20,310 nt of DNA from positions 1 to 20,310 of IMG/VR virus record IMGVR_UViG_3300025687_004466; one strand, 5' to 3'. The notes beneath the pieces are model-generated. The model saw only the letters and a program-made list of their open reading frames with translations, made no database searches and had not been told where the DNA came from. Both the position numbers and the translations under genes were made by a program. How positions within the stretch are numbered: position 1 is the stretch's first letter; each line of letters starts with the position of its first letter. Shown one piece after another: positions 39-19,257 of the stretch. Origin of the DNA: a virus.

Positions 39-1172
39 CTATAATGGTCCTAAGGCACAAGCCAGTTCAGGCCATAATTTGAGAAAATAGCCTGCTTTAT
101 CGGGATGATATAGTGTCTCTATATCATGTATGTGCTGTGCGAGCTTTAATGCTTCGTCTTGTTCTTCAGCACCGTTAAAATTATTTAGTGCTGTTGTGAA
201 GAAATCGCGCTCGCTGTCTGTTAAATCATCTCTTCTAAGAAACGTTTTTAGTTCTGTTATTGCTAAATTTTTAATTTCGTTTTTGTGCTTTAAAGGATCT
301 AAATAATCGGGCTGGTATAAACTTGCCCACTCAACATTTAGACCACAATCTTTTGCCCAATCTGTAAGTTCGTTTAAACGTGTACAGTTGTATAAATTGT
401 ACACAGCGTGAATACTAACCGCATGGTTTGTTGAAGATTTTAAATTTTTAATATTTAGAGTTAACTGATTCCAGCTACCACCATATCTAACATATTCATA
501 ACGCTCGTCGATATTGTCGAAACTTAAACTCCAGCTAACATTATTTTTATTTTTTAGCTTTCTGAAAATTTTATTTTTTTCTAAATCAACGCTAAAGTTA
601 GTAATTAGAGATATTTTTACCCCATCCGGAATAATATCTAACATCAGTTCATTTTCCGGTAATAGCAAAGGTTCGCCACCAACTAATGCCACTTCTCGTA
701 ACCAGCCACGATGTTGTTCTAAGTACTCATGTACCTGTTGATAATATGGTCTTACTTGCGACTTAAATGGAACATTATTCAACGCTGCCCATTTGCTGCT
801 ACATTTGTCACCACAATAATTACAAGATTGATTACAAGTAATATTCCATCGTACATCAACTAACACTGGTCTATGATAATCTAATGCCGCTTGAGAACTA
901 TCAAAATCTTCACTAACACTATTATGCCAATGTCTTTCGCTACGTCCGTAACGTTCTGATTGTATACAATTATAACAATATTGTTCGTGCATGCGTCCTT
1001 CACGCAATGTTGCACGTATCTCTTTCATTATATTGCTTTGCAAAATCTCATCAATGCTATTAGCATTAAGATTTCCAAGCATGTTTGGATCGCCGGCACA
1101 GCATGTTTTTACATCGCCCATTGGGTTAATGTGTAGACCGTGCCACGGTGCTGCACAATAAGTTTTATTCAT
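39..1172 (-). CDS. Radical SAM protein with N-terminal SPASM/twitch-like cysteine cluster
   Basis: The 377-residue protein carries CNQSCNYC at residues 113-120, the CxxxCxxC signature that binds the SAM-cleaving [4Fe-4S] cluster, and GGEP at about 165-168, the usual SAM-contact motif. The first 70 residues hold a second cysteine set (C6, C24, C25, C66, C69) in the pattern CxxPW...G-x-V-x-x-CC...C-x-x-C. This resembles a SPASM/twitch auxiliary-cluster domain placed before the radical SAM core, an order I recall from marine phage radical SAM proteins. The family does radical chemistry, often on peptides or proteins; the substrate here is unknown and no obvious precursor peptide lies beside it. 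ATG at 1170-1172 lies 8 bases after the stop of the upstream gene, with a CTAAATA element in between and no clear Shine-Dalgarno. It is probably the last gene of a late unit. Enzyme class is secure, function is not. Confidence 0.85.
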   Translation of the reverse strand: MNKTYCAAPWHGLHINPMGDVKTCCAGDPNMLGNLNANSIDEILQSNIMKEIRATLREGRMHEQYCYNCIQSERYGRSERHWHNSVSEDFDSSQAALDYHRPVLVDVRWNITCNQSCNYCGDKCSSKWAALNNVPFKSQVRPYYQQVHEYLEQHRGWLREVALVGGEPLLLPENELMLDIIPDGVKISLITNFSVDLEKNKIFRKLKNKNNVSWSLSFDNIDERYEYVRYGGSWNQLTLNIKNLKSSTNHAVSIHAVYNLYNCTRLNELTDWAKDCGLNVEWASLYQPDYLDPLKHKNEIKNLAITELKTFLRRDDLTDSERDFFTTALNNFNGAEEQDEALKLAQHIHDIETLYHPDKAGYFLKLWPELACALGPL

Positions 1173-1180
1173 GTAGATAC

Positions 1181-2143
1181 TTATTTAGATCGGCGTCGGG
1201 CACCTTTATAACCATTGAATGGTTTAAATGGTGAATTTTTATTAACTGCTTCTGGTTCGTCGCTACCTGGTGGTACATGCTGTCCTAACGGAACACCCAT
1301 GTATTTAAATGCTTTTTTAGCCATTTCATACTCCTCAGGAGTATAAGTAACCATCATTGGTGTATTATTAATCCAACTCCACGGATCGATATCGCTTGGA
1401 TCTTCTGGCAATCTAGCAATAATCATACTAGCACGATACATGTCATAGTACTTGTCCCGAGTATAAACTGCACCAGGATTTGCTTCCCAATATGTACGGG
1501 GCATTTTGCCTATTTTAGCTTCATGTAGAATTTCTTTAAAATGTTGACTTGTTTCGCTAACAATAGAAGCGACTGTTTTAGTTGTTTGAAATTTTAAATG
1601 CCAATTTCCATTTTCAAATGTTAGTTGGCTTTCGTCGACATCTCTAATACCTGGAAAAGCACCTAATTTTAAATCCTTTGGAATAGTGATAACGTGTTGT
1701 TTGCTTTTTGGTGCCCACTGATAATCCAACTCTGGAATTGCTTTAGCATATAATGCAATCTGATTTGATGTAACACCGGTTCCTTCTTTTTCTAAAATTT
1801 GATTTAAAATATGATCCTGAATAATAAGGACAATATCATTGCCAGTTTGGTGCTTGTCCATTACTTTTGGATTGTGCGAGTATTTCAATACATTAAGTAA
1901 CGCACGACCCCATTTACTGTAGCGTCCGATGCGGTCAAAATCTACTACTGTTTTACCTTTTGCTTCATTGGCAATGGCGTGTTTTAACACTTCGTTTGTA
2001 GCAGCATCCATTACAATTGAAATACTGTCCGTTACATCTGTAATCTTGCTTTCAATTACATATTCGTTGTTAACACTAATAACCACAGTATCACCAACAT
2101 GCGGTTTGTTAGAATTAGAAATGTAATCGGTAAGTTTTTTCAT
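1181..2143 (-). CDS. Conserved phage protein of unknown function, probable virion-associated
   Basis: 320 residues, not assigned to a named family. Residues 15-50 (HVGDTVVISVNNEYVIESKI) look like a small beta-barrel (SH3/KOW-like) segment. Residues about 210-245 contain an aromatic- and Arg-rich stretch (TYWEANPGAVYTRDKYYDMY), and the C-terminus is basic (GARRRSK). I recall similar C-terminal segments in marine T4-like phage proteins, but no function. The N-terminus MKKLTDYISNS resembles the amphipathic starts of the neighbouring genes but lacks the glutamate of a gp21-type cleavage site. The ATG at 2141-2143 overlaps the TAA of the upstream gene (TAATG), so translation is probably coupled. 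The neighbours suggest a head or internal virion protein; that is inference. Confidence 0.7.
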   Translation of the reverse strand: MKKLTDYISNSNKPHVGDTVVISVNNEYVIESKITDVTDSISIVMDAATNEVLKHAIANEAKGKTVVDFDRIGRYSKWGRALLNVLKYSHNPKVMDKHQTGNDIVLIIQDHILNQILEKEGTGVTSNQIALYAKAIPELDYQWAPKSKQHVITIPKDLKLGAFPGIRDVDESQLTFENGNWHLKFQTTKTVASIVSETSQHFKEILHEAKIGKMPRTYWEANPGAVYTRDKYYDMYRASMIIARLPEDPSDIDPWSWINNTPMMVTYTPEEYEMAKKAFKYMGVPLGQHVPPGSDEPEAVNKNSPFKPFNGYKGARRRSK

Positions 2144-2553
2144 TAATCTTCAAACTTATTAAACAGTTTACGACTACCCATTGTAGCAAACGGCTGTTCG
2201 TAAATCGACATTACCACAGCTTGGTTATCATATTTTGCTCTTAATTGTTCAGCAAAGTGCTGAGCTTGTTTTTGTACATCTTTGTCATCTTTAGCATACA
2301 TGTACATTTCAATAGCAACAACGTAACGTGTATCGTCTGTTGCTTCAGTAATGCTTTCGTCGAGCATGGAAACAGCTTTCTTTAAAGCAGGGGAATAATC
2401 TCCTTTGCGAATGTCATCTAACCATTCGTCATATGTCATGCCATAATCGTTTTCTTTATAGACGCGAACCAAATATGCTTGTGCTTCTCGTTTACTTCCA
2501 AAACCTTCGCGTATAGTGTCAAGAGATTCTAAAATTTTATAGATGGAATCCAT
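2143..2553 (-). CDS. Small acidic protein with capsid-targeting-like N-terminus
   Basis: The preferred start is the ATG at 2551-2553, giving 136 residues. It has an AGGTG ribosome-binding site 7-8 bases upstream, whereas an in-frame TTG at 2580 has none. The protein starts MDSIYKILES, an amphipathic helix ending in I-L-E before S. This fits the T4 gp21 protease preference (hydrophobic-x-E, then a small residue) and the T4 capsid-targeting peptide MKTYQEFIAE/A. A second match, SITE/A, lies at residues 68-71. The central part is mixed alpha/beta (YVVAIEMYMYAKDD and AEQLRAKYDN) with no recognised family. Only two bases separate it from the upstream gene, whose product begins with a very similar peptide. 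A processed internal head protein is the best guess. Confidence 0.7.
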   Translation of the reverse strand: MDSIYKILESLDTIREGFGSKREAQAYLVRVYKENDYGMTYDEWLDDIRKGDYSPALKKAVSMLDESITEATDDTRYVVAIEMYMYAKDDKDVQKQAQHFAEQLRAKYDNQAVVMSIYEQPFATMGSRKLFNKFED

Positions 2554-2555
2554 AA

Positions 2556-4022
2556 TTACACCTTTTTGTATAAGTCCCAAAGACCGCGCATTAAGTTTTC
2601 TTCGTTAACGGCCATTGGATTATCACCCGGATATTCTTTCTTAAACTGTTGCTTTTGACGATTTAGACCGCCTGCGGACTTGTTAACCATGTAGTCTACA
2701 GACATAGTTTTTTCGTCTGGCTCGTTAGCATACTCTTCTTCTACTTGTTCACCGCACGGGGTCGCTGCTACTAATTGTGCTTCGCGATCCTTGTATGGTA
2801 ATCCTGCTGCCTTAAGAATAGCAACTAATGTGTGCGCATCTTCATCTGTAGCGTTTACATTTACTGTATCCGGAGCATCTGTGCCAGCAGTTGTAGTAAC
2901 TGTCATTGACTCATTAAGAGCGTTATTAAATTTATCTTCATATTCATTCATGGTACTTTCCTTAGGTTTTTCCATGCTTAGTACATTATAGTTTGCATAT
3001 AGTGCATTACGTGCAGCACGTAAGCCTTCTGCTGTTTTATCAAAAGACTGTACTACTTCGCCGTCGGCGTTTTTTAAATGGTGTCCTTTGAAATCTGAAA
3101 ATACCGTTGCAGCACCTTCATTAACATCACTTTTAGTAATTTTATCAATTAGCTTTCTTAGTAAATTATCAACACTTTCGTTTGCATCTGCTTCCTGAAC
3201 AACATCATCAATTAATGACATTATATATTCATCGCCGTGAATTCGAAATGCCTGAGGAATTCTAATATACGCTTCGTCAGCTAACTTTCTCGCTAAATCA
3301 CTGTCTTTGTCTTCAGTAATTTTTGACTCATCAAAACGATCGAACTCTTGTGGCGAGGGCATCATTTTTACTAACTTTTCAAATAAATCCGGTAAAGAGT
3401 TATCGTCGGGGAACTTATAAAGCCGGGTATTGCCACTAGTACTATCTGCCGGTCCTTCAATTTCAATGTATCCTGTTTTGTCTGCTGTAGGGAACCAATC
3501 GGCCGCTATTTCAACGGTTTTTTCAAACATCGGAGTAACAACAAACGGCGAATAGGTAAGAACCCAATTTCGATGTTTCTTTAACGCATAATTTAAAATA
3601 TAAATAGCTGCTGGAATATATGGAACATAATAATATGCCTTCAACAATTTACTACTAAAAATTGGAAGTTCTTTTGGGTATTCTGACAGATCGTATCCAG
3701 CCGGAGAAATGTTCTTATCGGTTTGTACCAGTTGGTCGTCATCACCCATATGATACGCATGTTGTTTTTTTCGAAGTTCAACGCAATTTTCATCATCAGG
3801 ATCACATCCGAGTGCTTCTGCTTCTTGGCGGCGCCGAGCTGTTGGATCAACAATCCCGCGGCTTAGAACTTTTTCAGCTTGCTTTTCGCCTGTTCCGTAT
3901 TCAGATTTTTTAGATTTCGTTAAACGATTGTACCATTCTTTAGCCCTATCTGACCACTCAGTTGGGCCTTCGGTCATCGTTGCTCTATTAAAATTTTCTA
4001 TAATTTTATATAAATCATCCAT
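2556..4022 (-). CDS. Large two-part protein with terminal and internal capsid-targeting-like peptides
   Basis: 488 residues, no recognised catalytic motif. It begins MDDLYKIIEN, almost the same peptide as the next gene downstream (MDSIYKILES). Residues 1-345 form one region, with Lys/Arg/Glu-rich stretches at 20-90 and a hydrophobic/aromatic patch at about 125-165 (KAYYYVPYIPAAIYILNYAL) that is probably buried helix rather than a clear membrane anchor. Residues 358-372 (MNEYEDKFNNALNES) read like a second N-terminal targeting peptide. A C-terminal part follows with a Thr/Asp-rich strand region (VTTTAGTDAPDTVNVNATDE), a helix (AHTLVAILKAAGLP) and GGLN...GDNPM near residues 450-470. I recall similar C-terminal segments in marine phage virion proteins. 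It may be a fusion of two head-core proteins. It starts 6 bases after the upstream stop. Function unknown. Confidence 0.7.
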   Translation of the reverse strand: MDDLYKIIENFNRATMTEGPTEWSDRAKEWYNRLTKSKKSEYGTGEKQAEKVLSRGIVDPTARRRQEAEALGCDPDDENCVELRKKQHAYHMGDDDQLVQTDKNISPAGYDLSEYPKELPIFSSKLLKAYYYVPYIPAAIYILNYALKKHRNWVLTYSPFVVTPMFEKTVEIAADWFPTADKTGYIEIEGPADSTSGNTRLYKFPDDNSLPDLFEKLVKMMPSPQEFDRFDESKITEDKDSDLARKLADEAYIRIPQAFRIHGDEYIMSLIDDVVQEADANESVDNLLRKLIDKITKSDVNEGAATVFSDFKGHHLKNADGEVVQSFDKTAEGLRAARNALYANYNVLSMEKPKESTMNEYEDKFNNALNESMTVTTTAGTDAPDTVNVNATDEDAHTLVAILKAAGLPYKDREAQLVAATPCGEQVEEEYANEPDEKTMSVDYMVNKSAGGLNRQKQQFKKEYPGDNPMAVNEENLMRGLWDLYKKV

Positions 4023-4028
4023 TTTCTA

Positions 4029-4583
4029 TTAATTTCCTACCGGGCTTTTTGATTTATCTTCTGTATCGGTATTAAATGTTGCCTTTGGAGTTTTCCCGCC
4101 AGCAATTTCATACTCGCGAGTTTCCATATCTTTAACTACATTTTGGAAACTATTGCCATATGCGTCCGACGCATCTTTTTGTTCTTTATTTTGTTCAGGA
4201 AGTGCTTGATTGTCTAATAAAGCGCCGTCATGCTCTTTAGCAGCATCTTCGGCATCAACTGAATCTAAGAAACGCTTATCTAACATCTTCAAACGGTCAA
4301 CATCACAGCCTTTTGATGCTGCTAACTCCATAACTTGATGAATAGATGCTGGATATTCTAATACCACATCCATTGAACTTACAGATTCATTTTCAAAATT
4401 TGGAAAATCATATGGACATTTCATAACTGGCGTAGTTTTAATGCTACCGTATGACTGTGGGTTAAACTTAGCAAGGATGTTCTTTAAAATTTCTTGCTTT
4501 TCTTTTGTAAAGTCACCGACATACTTAATACGGTATTCATATGATTTTTTTGATTCTGTTAAAAATTCTGTTAGCGAGCGCAT
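4029..4583 (-). CDS. Putative internal head protein with strong capsid-targeting-like N-terminus
   Basis: The ATG at 4581-4583 is chosen over an in-frame TTG six bases upstream because CAGGAG sits 7 bases before it. The 184-residue product starts MRSLTEFLTES. This closely follows the T4 capsid-targeting peptide (MKTYQEFIAE/A), with L-T-E before S as a candidate gp21-type cleavage site. Residues 15-75 (YEYRIKYVGDFTKEKQEI, later SMDVVLEYPAS) suggest a beta-alpha-beta ferredoxin-like fold; residues about 115-184 are polar and probably disordered. No enzyme motif is seen. A perfect TATAAATA late promoter lies 23 bases upstream, overlapping the stop codon of gp16, so this gene heads the next transcription unit. 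Scaffold or packaged core protein are the main options. Confidence 0.72.
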   Translation of the reverse strand: MRSLTEFLTESKKSYEYRIKYVGDFTKEKQEILKNILAKFNPQSYGSIKTTPVMKCPYDFPNFENESVSSMDVVLEYPASIHQVMELAASKGCDVDRLKMLDKRFLDSVDAEDAAKEHDGALLDNQALPEQNKEQKDASDAYGNSFQNVVKDMETREYEIAGGKTPKATFNTDTEDKSKSPVGN

Positions 4584-4605
4584 TCTCAAACTCCTGATTT
4601 AAGTA

Positions 4606-12156: not shown

Positions 12157-12185
12157 ATTATAGTAGAGTGTTGAGTAGTTGTCAA
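12157..12185 (-). promoter_or_regulatory. Perfect sigma70 promoter for the exonuclease
   Basis: The minus strand has TTGACA (12180-12185), a 17-base spacer and TATAAT (12157-12162), full consensus at both hexamers. The -35 overlaps the TGA stop of the upstream gene. The predicted start, 7 bases after the -10, is the exonuclease ATG itself. This would allow early transcription by unmodified host polymerase. Confidence 0.85.
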
Positions 12186-12475
12186 CCTTTACGTGCTTTA
12201 TTCAAAGCACGTATCAGTCTGCTTGCTGTGTTAATACGTTTAGAACGCTCGCTTCTGCGGGCTTGTTGTTTGTAGGTTTGCGCTCTTGTGCGCTTCATTT
12301 TTTCACGCTTGGCTACATCAATCGGCTTGTCGCAATCTGTAACAGATGGAACAATACGTCCTTTACGCTTACCAGAAGTACAACGCCATTTTAGTTTTGC
12401 TTTGCCACCTCGAGTTGTAGTTTTAGAACGACTCCAAACCATTTCGTGTTCTGGAATAAACTCGCTTGCTCGCAT
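12182..12475 (-). CDS. Small highly basic protein with MRASEFI start, possible packaged DNA-binding protein
   Basis: 97 residues with a great excess of Lys and Arg. It starts MRASEFIPEH, close to the T4 capsid-targeting peptide MKTYQEFIAE, then WSRSKTTTRGGKAKLKWRCT, SGKRKGRIVPSVTDCDKPID (two cysteines, C32 and about C48, a possible metal or disulphide pair) and a helical basic tail (RTRAQTYKQQARRSERSKRI). I recall this WRCTSG-x-RKGR...C-x-x-PIDVAKR pattern as a widespread uncharacterised protein in marine phages. Its ATG overlaps the gp13 TAA (TAATG), so it is probably translated with gp13. A histone-like internal head protein that enters with DNA is a reasonable inference, unproven. Confidence 0.75.
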   Translation of the reverse strand: MRASEFIPEHEMVWSRSKTTTRGGKAKLKWRCTSGKRKGRIVPSVTDCDKPIDVAKREKMKRTRAQTYKQQARRSERSKRINTASRLIRALNKARKG

Positions 12476-18640: not shown

Positions 18641-19257
18641 TAATATGACCCACCATCAATTGTTTTGTTGTCTAGTGTTTGTGTATCAGAAGTACCAACT
18701 ACTGTTCCCAATGGTGCTGTTTTATCGTGCCAAGTTTGTAATGCAGAACTTACGGTAACATCACTTTGATCGTTACCGGCATCATCTGTGGCAATAAGAT
18801 ATGTACCATCAAAATTTAAATTTGTTCTTGCGATTAAATTAACACTGTTATTTTGTATTGTGTGTCCACTGGTAGCTAGCGACGACCACGATAAATTGCC
18901 TGAGCCATCAGTTACTAATGTTTGTAAATTTATTCCATCTGTAGTTGGAAATGTAAACGCTCCATTGATAGTCAGGCTTGATGCTTTTAACCCTGCAACT
19001 TGTAACGGAGCATATGCAATTAATGTCACATCGCCTGACGTGCCTCCTTGTTCATTAGAACTAGCTAAAATAAATTGATTTGCTGATTCATCCCACAGTA
19101 AAACCTGATTAGTATCGCCACCTCGTTCAAAAACAACACCAATATCCTTAGTATTACTGATTCCAGAACTAGCATTGTTATTTAAAACAACAATTGGATC
19201 GTCAAACGCTGATGTAGTGGTTGATATTTGCGCAAGTTTAGGTCTAGTCAAGCCCAT
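18640..19257 (-). CDS. Short tail fibre / adaptor-type protein
   Basis: 205 residues. MGLTRPKLAQISTTTSAFDD is followed by KDIGVVFERGGDTNQVLLWD and ESANQFILASSNEQG, a beta-rich pattern common in marine T4-like fibre proteins. LVTDGSGNLSWSS and GTSDTQTLDNKTIDGGSY are typical fibre shaft repeats (T-Q-T-L-x-N-K-T-I), with the protein ending right after one of them, so it looks like a short fibre or adaptor rather than a receptor tip. A GATAAATA late promoter is located 23 bases before its ATG, beyond the terminator of the long fibre gene. AAAAAGG lies 11-13 bases before the ATG as a ribosome-binding site. It is coupled to the 17969-18640 gene. Confidence 0.75.
   Translation of the reverse strand: MGLTRPKLAQISTTTSAFDDPIVVLNNNASSGISNTKDIGVVFERGGDTNQVLLWDESANQFILASSNEQGGTSGDVTLIAYAPLQVAGLKASSLTINGAFTFPTTDGINLQTLVTDGSGNLSWSSLATSGHTIQNNSVNLIARTNLNFDGTYLIATDDAGNDQSDVTVSSALQTWHDKTAPLGTVVGTSDTQTLDNKTIDGGSY

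Follow-up and report, generated by a model that had tools for sequence, protein, structure and literature searches.

Known propeptides and the p1-p4 block

The internal proteins (IPs) of phage T4, IPI, IPII and IPIII, begin with an N-terminal decapeptide (MKTYQEFIAE/A, the slash marking the cut) that has hydrophobic residues at positions 4, 7 and 8 and a glutamate at position 10 followed by a small residue, forming an L/I-x-E site. In IPIII, residues 4 and 7 are used for targeting and residues 8 and 10 for processing, and an aspartate at position 10 prevents processing while targeting stays intact (PMC9026906). Here, we analysed a 20.3-kilobase (kb) virus fragment (IMG/VR record IMGVR_UViG_3300025687_004466, positions 1 to 20,310; hereafter the window), which comes from an environmental, T4-related jumbo phage of the RaK2/PA5oct/Atu_ph07 type, and focused on four consecutive genes, p1-p4, whose products start with peptides resembling the T4 sequence. 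With a probability that we put at roughly 0.6, p1-p4 are virion proteins of a T4-superfamily jumbo phage, most likely of the head interior or prohead core, that are brought in by capsid-targeting sequences of the T4 type. Support is strong for p1, good for p4 and moderate for p2 and p3.

In the mechanism proposed for this block, which lies between a gp4-like head-completion gene and, in a 213-kb relative (L015/G009; hereafter G009), the large terminase gene, the N-terminal amphipathic peptides would act as T4 capsid-targeting sequences. Hydrophobic residues 4, 7 and 8 would bind the scaffold core during prohead assembly, and an S77 (gp21-type) protease would then cut after the glutamate of L/I-x-E and free the mature protein within the head. 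The clearest case would be p1, cut after E10; p2 and p3 would have two possible cuts each in a longer tag, and p4 would remain untrimmed.

Like T4, the relatives of the window have T4-type head genes and an S77 protease. No homology of mature p1-p4 to the T4 IPs was detected, and p1-p3 are acidic (isoelectric point, pI, 4.8-4.9) whereas the T4 IPs are small and basic, so that these proteins should not be filed as members of the T4 IP family; the p2 and p3 tag is also different and longer, and p4 lacks E10. T4 Alt (cut at ITE-6) and gp24 (LLRE/S by sequence) share the short N-terminal propeptide ending in L/I-x-E, but no similarity of the mature parts was seen and no ADP-ribosyltransferase domain was found in p1-p4. 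The inner-head proteins of phiKZ and SPN3US are comparable in that several unrelated head proteins are cut after glutamate and that, in phiKZ, a single propeptide can have multiple cleavage sites (PMC9026906). However, their motifs are A-x-E or S-x-E, their propeptides often exceed 100 residues and they belong to a different lineage (PMC5694885). For most virion proteins of jumbo phages, neither location nor role is known; should head-bound proteins be marked by a ten-residue N-terminal code, the cargo could be read from genomes, including those of uncultured phages.

The N-terminus of p1

The N-terminus of p1 is very likely a capsid-targeting sequence of the T4 type. Its decapeptide matches the T4 targeting and processing residues position by position, and when 2,109 proteins were ranked by similarity to the p1 N-terminus, T4 IPII and IPIII were among the top ten. 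In 14 lineages that diverge to about 21% identity, only L or F occurs at position 4 and only Y, I or F at position 7, and position 8 is occupied by L, V, I or Y. Eleven of the lineages have E at position 10 and the others D, S or A, the residue after E10 being mostly S or N. Cultured relatives with E10 include CBB (CBB_210, MNKLQKILTE/L), 121Q and Vibrio phage 2.275.O (MKDLNTILTE/S). The p1 family forms a natural E10/D10/S10/A10 series with positions 4 and 7 kept, which parallels the T4 mutants that bear on targeting versus processing; on this reading, the D10, S10 and A10 forms would stay uncut. In codons 2-13 of eight close genes, codon 5 alone alters the amino acid. Because synonymous changes occur there while the amino acids stay, a nucleotide-level (translational) cause of the frozen start is disfavoured, on the basis of a few varying codons.

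The AlphaFold model of p1 contains a helix at residues 4-10, with a mean predicted local distance difference test (pLDDT) score of 52 over residues 1-10, ahead of an alpha/beta core that starts near residue 15 and scores 80-90. A low-confidence helix before a well-predicted core is the pattern expected of a removable tag. In the fold search, S6/ferredoxin-like matches were weak (best E 6e-4), and no function was inferred from them. At the family level, p1 matches the profile of PHROG 14802 (virion structural protein) over residues 1-67 (E=4.6e-5; 9e-107 for the CBB homologue) and shares with it the gene order gp4-like/x/p1. It is a divergent homologue, in the same neighbourhood, of the RaK2/CBB/PBECO4 and PA5oct virion structural family, but is just 21-23% identical to it, and no targeting peptide was described for this family in the papers searched.

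Annotated starts seem misplaced in two of the phages compared. In Atu_ph07 (NC_042013), the start of FDI40_gp113 (L120 1081-1848) seems too far downstream; an in-frame ATG with a ribosome-binding site upstream of it adds MKTLQDYLTESKKCYTYHVK, which is the conserved p1 start. The start of RaK2 gp488 seems to be annotated 24 codons too far upstream.

Chance rates for the motif were estimated from 1,380 proteins of four relatives, with E at positions 7-13. Hydrophobic-x-E occurs in 13.7% of these N-termini, and in 5.1% if the residue after the cut (P1') is S, A, N, T or G; about 0.04 (loose motif) or 0.002 (with P1') sets of three consecutive motif genes are expected by chance per window, and the four relative genomes contain no such run. 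The bare motif was not enriched at N-termini genome-wide and was dropped as evidence, which makes the criterion of the preliminary description, a short amphipathic helix ending in hydrophobic-x-E, a weak one for p2 and p3. In T4, the motif with a small P1' is found in 17 of 272 open reading frames (ORFs), by sequence including IPII, IPIII, gp21, gp22, gp24 and gp68. The strict pattern M[KR]x3-5[FYIL][LIVM]xE[small], to which p1 conforms, retrieves IPII and IPIII alone among these 272. T4-like starts of the form M[KRN]x1-4[FYIL][LIVM]xE were present at 38 of 571 N-termini versus 11 of 1,312 internal M[KRN] positions (odds ratio 8.4), several of the 38 being p1 relatives.

p4 and the longer tag of p2 and p3

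The preliminary description had reported a cluster of three consecutive genes with T4-like capsid-targeting peptides. Their ORFs and N-termini (MRSLTEFLTE/S, MDDLYKIIE/N and MDSIYKILE/S for p1, p2 and p3) are exactly as claimed, and so are the ribosome-binding sites of p1 and p3, whose starts are kept in near relatives (Table 1). The site of p2 is weaker (TAGGAA, 4033-4039, about 12 nucleotides before the ATG), with element and start also kept in relatives. The T4-like tag holds well for p1, for which targeting residues, a conserved E10, virion-confirmed homologues and a protease in relatives come together. On p2 and p3 there is indeed a shared N-terminal module, although one distinct from the T4 tag and confined to near relatives. 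The cluster also extends to a fourth gene that had been missed, p4, whose start resembles the T4 tag more closely than the p2 and p3 starts do.

In seven sequences, M1, K2, L4 and Y7 of p4 are invariant, and these include the T4 targeting positions 4 and 7. Position 10 varies between N, D and E; the window has N, and the processing glutamate is found only in L007 (YINE/S) and G016 (YLTE/A). As the targeting residues are kept without the processing E, the simplest reading is that p4 carries the targeting half of a T4-type sequence and should be targeted, not trimmed, in this virus. The structure model of p4 had low confidence (48.8) and was not used. At its other end, p4 (window about 1181-1300) has a C-terminal motif, EPxxxNKxSPFKPFxGYKG / SKEPxDTHKVSPVTGFKGYPR, that is common to several different proteins of the block (also G016 154382-155154).

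For p2 and p3, the sequences give moderate support to a related but distinct tag of 16-18 residues. Hydrophobic residues occupy the targeting positions 4 and 7 and also position 8 (L4, I7 and I8 in p2; I4, I7 and L8 in p3), and the module M(D/E)xIYxILExLxxIxE(G/A) is common to these two otherwise unrelated proteins and a third protein in G009. In seven aligned p2 sequences, Y5, E9, E18 and P20 are invariant, and the next 60-200 residues are highly variable in length and sequence; such an invariant start ahead of a strongly variable region is the pattern expected of a tag. E9 of p3 is kept in the window and near relatives. The second candidate site, M/V/I-x-E/(G/A) at position 18 in p2 and IRE/G at position 16 in p3, fits the rule of L/I-x-E plus a small residue at least as well as the first and may be the better one (IxE/G or VxE/A, at about residues 14-18). 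The p3 tag resembles the N-termini of CBB_214 and RaK2 gp051, which ranked at the top and at 0.1% of the 2,109 N-termini and belong to a different family (PHROG 14971). A tblastn search of p2 against cultured phages gave no match.

In G009, 14 non-homologous protein pairs have similar N-termini versus 3.4 expected (at most 5 in any of ten shuffles), and tag-like starts are frequent among the highest-ranking pairs. A tentative and rather doubtful extension is that, in marine T4-type jumbo phages, two or more packaging tags (MRxxEFLxE and the longer xxIYKILExLxxIxE/G) sit on many unrelated proteins genome-wide, including enzyme-like ones. If true, a large head-packaged repertoire would be addressed by a modular and readable system.

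Table 1. Coordinates of p1-p4, their N-terminal elements and a further candidate in the window (aa, amino acids; nt, nucleotides)
Feature	Coordinates	Strand	Remarks
p1	4029..4583	-	184 aa, pI 4.9; capsid-targeting-like N-terminus, then predicted S6/ferredoxin-like domain; homologue of CBB_210 / PA5oct EST35_0202
p1 decapeptide MRSLTEFLTE, capsid-targeting-like	4554..4583	-	predicted cut before S11; PMC9026906
p1 ribosome-binding site AGGAG	4591..4595	-	7 nt before ATG
p2	2556..4022	-	488 aa, pI 4.8; N-terminus conserved, middle hypervariable, C-terminal half conserved
p2 N-terminal module MDDLYKIIENFNRATMTE	3969..4022	-	candidate sites IIE/N (E9), MTE/G (E18)
p3	2143..2553	-	136 aa, pI 4.8
p3 N-terminal module MDSIYKILESLDTIRE	2506..2553	-	candidate sites ILE/S (E9), IRE/G (E16)
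p3 ribosome-binding site AAGG(TG)	2561..2564	-	7 nt before ATG
p4	1181..2143	-	320 aa, pI 8.4; fourth gene of block
p4 N-terminus MKKLTDYISN/S	2114..2143	-	M1, K2, L4, Y7 invariant in 7 sequences; position 10 = N/D/E
Very basic protein, start MRASEFIPE/H	12182..12475	-	97 aa, pI 11.6; further candidate tagged protein

Processing, virion detection and alternative explanations

The S77 (gp21-type) protease was found in all 12 relatives reached via the capsid gene (12/12) and in T4, as well as in PA5oct, Atu_ph07 and PBECO4, and contigs of the sample series of the p1 block contain protease genes that share 91-92% identity with the L041 gene. Neither the window, which is too short to judge the protease of this virus by, nor G009 includes the gp20-gp21-gp22 block. 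A PF03420 search of the window's near relatives and G009 gave no match, with the control in known phages matching; the miss in G009 is explained by its beginning at the capsid gene, as the protease is expected just upstream. At the site that we take to align to the T4 gp23 cut, the capsid proteins of the relatives have L-x-E/[NSATV]. The predicted site in the L040 capsid protein, which is 100% identical to that of G009, is HLTE/S, nearly the FLTE/S of p1.

Proteins of the p1 family are present in virions of two cultured phages. CBB_210, the p1 homologue of CBB, was detected with 13 unique peptides and 60.5% coverage, together with CBB_213 and CBB_214 (PMC5259590), and in PA5oct both the p1 homologue EST35_0202 and EST35_0203 are flagged by electrospray ionization tandem mass spectrometry (ESI-MS/MS). 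As this presence was already on record, the cluster can be called unrecognised, as it was in the preliminary description, with regard to its targeting peptide and head location. RaK2 gp051 was also found in virions (PMC3622015). The motif with a small P1' occurs in 9/90 PA5oct proteins detected by mass spectrometry versus 10/367 others (p=0.005), and in CBB (region 116-225 kb, at least 100 aa) in 7/33 versus 3/61 (p=0.03), an enrichment that gives weak to moderate support.

Several observations weigh against a T4-type packaging of p1-p4. The enrichment in PA5oct falls to p=0.13 at 100 aa or more and is therefore counted as weak support; the effect is modest overall, and whole-virion proteomics does not distinguish proteins of the head interior from those of the tail or neck. 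E10 is absent from the p1 homologues of PA5oct (A10), RaK2 (D10) and Phosso (S10). Farther out, the p2 tag is not retained (E is lost in G019 and G016 has another start), and the p3 tag is swapped for a different start in L008, L012, L014 and L015. Finally, no protease or scaffold gene was found inside the window, and p1-p3 differ from the T4 IPs in charge, as described above.

It is unlikely, in our view, that a true T4-type tag is limited to p1 (and p4), the starts of p2 and p3 being a structural helix (e.g., for a coiled coil or docking) that matches the cleavage site by chance. The invariance of p2 E9 and E18 despite the hypervariable region behind them argues against such a helix, as does the same module on the unrelated p2, p3 and G009 protein, with similar starts on two virion proteins, CBB_214 and RaK2 gp051. 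On the other hand, four relatives have a different p3 start, about 5% of all N-termini have hydrophobic-x-E with a small P1', and the p2 helix in G013 and G019 persists about 8 residues in from the start without a cleavable glutamate. We consider it quite unlikely that p1-p3 are prohead scaffold or core proteins that are degraded by the protease instead of being retained or injected as cargo: their acidity and the length and variability of p2 recall core proteins, and in T4 the gp21 protease likewise cuts gp22 and gp67 at L/I-x-E (PMC9026906), but peptides from mature virions cover 60.5% of the p1 homologue CBB_210 and CBB_213, CBB_214 and EST35_0203 are detected too. Injection of p1-p4 into the host is possible but unsupported.

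A location of p1-p4 in the neck or tail, with the N-terminal helix as an assembly contact unrelated to the capsid, appears improbable. Such a location would suit the adjoining tail tube, sheath and head-completion genes, and finding a protein in whole virions does not tell where it sits, but a neck or tail location would leave the position-specific match to the T4 targeting and processing residues unaccounted for, as well as the identity of the L-x-E/S site with the predicted site of the capsid protein. Chance resemblance is very improbable and already refuted for p1: even with the loose motif at 14% and about 0.04 runs of three expected per window, p1 residues 4, 7, 8 and 10 are conserved over 14 lineages and the strict pattern picks 2/2 known internal proteins in T4.

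Neighbouring genes and further tag-like starts

The T4-type tail and neck genes of the window encode a sheath protein, two tube-like proteins, a head-completion nuclease (gp4-like), a neck protein, a sheath stabiliser and others. The sheath is closest to those of the jumbo phages PA5oct (Pseudomonas phage), Atu_ph07 (Agrobacterium phage), SCTP-2 (Salicola phage) and RaK2-type phages. The gene order gp4-like, x, p1, p2, p3, p4 is kept in the homologous contigs L003-L015, and in G009 the large terminase gene comes soon afterwards. A Pfam search of p1-p4 gave no match above the cut-off. Within the structural block, a gene for a radical SAM/SPASM protein (39-1172, minus strand) is conserved in relatives.

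The 97-aa MRASEFIPE protein (12182-12475) is closer to the T4 IPs in charge and is a candidate head-packaged protein. Its homologue in G009 keeps MRAGEFIP, and about 58 additional residues precede its conserved basic part. In L031 204-5885 (G009 180204-185885), five genes in a row have MRAx[ED][FL]-type starts: MRATEFLTE, MRARDFILLE, MRAREFIVE, MRAKEFLLE and MRANDLIFE. Four of the five proteins have 438-467 aa and a common continuation EY[KN][RH]D[IV]T. No known domain was seen in this group, and domain searches of other tagged G009 proteins revealed no clear function. Tag-like starts were also noted in G019 at 107683-109617 and 110543-111289 (MDIKKSLSILDGIHE/G and MFINELLE/S); by eye, these proteins resemble a methyltransferase and a nucleotidyltransferase and are possible packaged enzymes. 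In T4 itself, a 54-aa ORF at 18966-19130 (minus strand) starts with MKTFKEFIKE, which is very close to the T4 capsid-targeting sequence.

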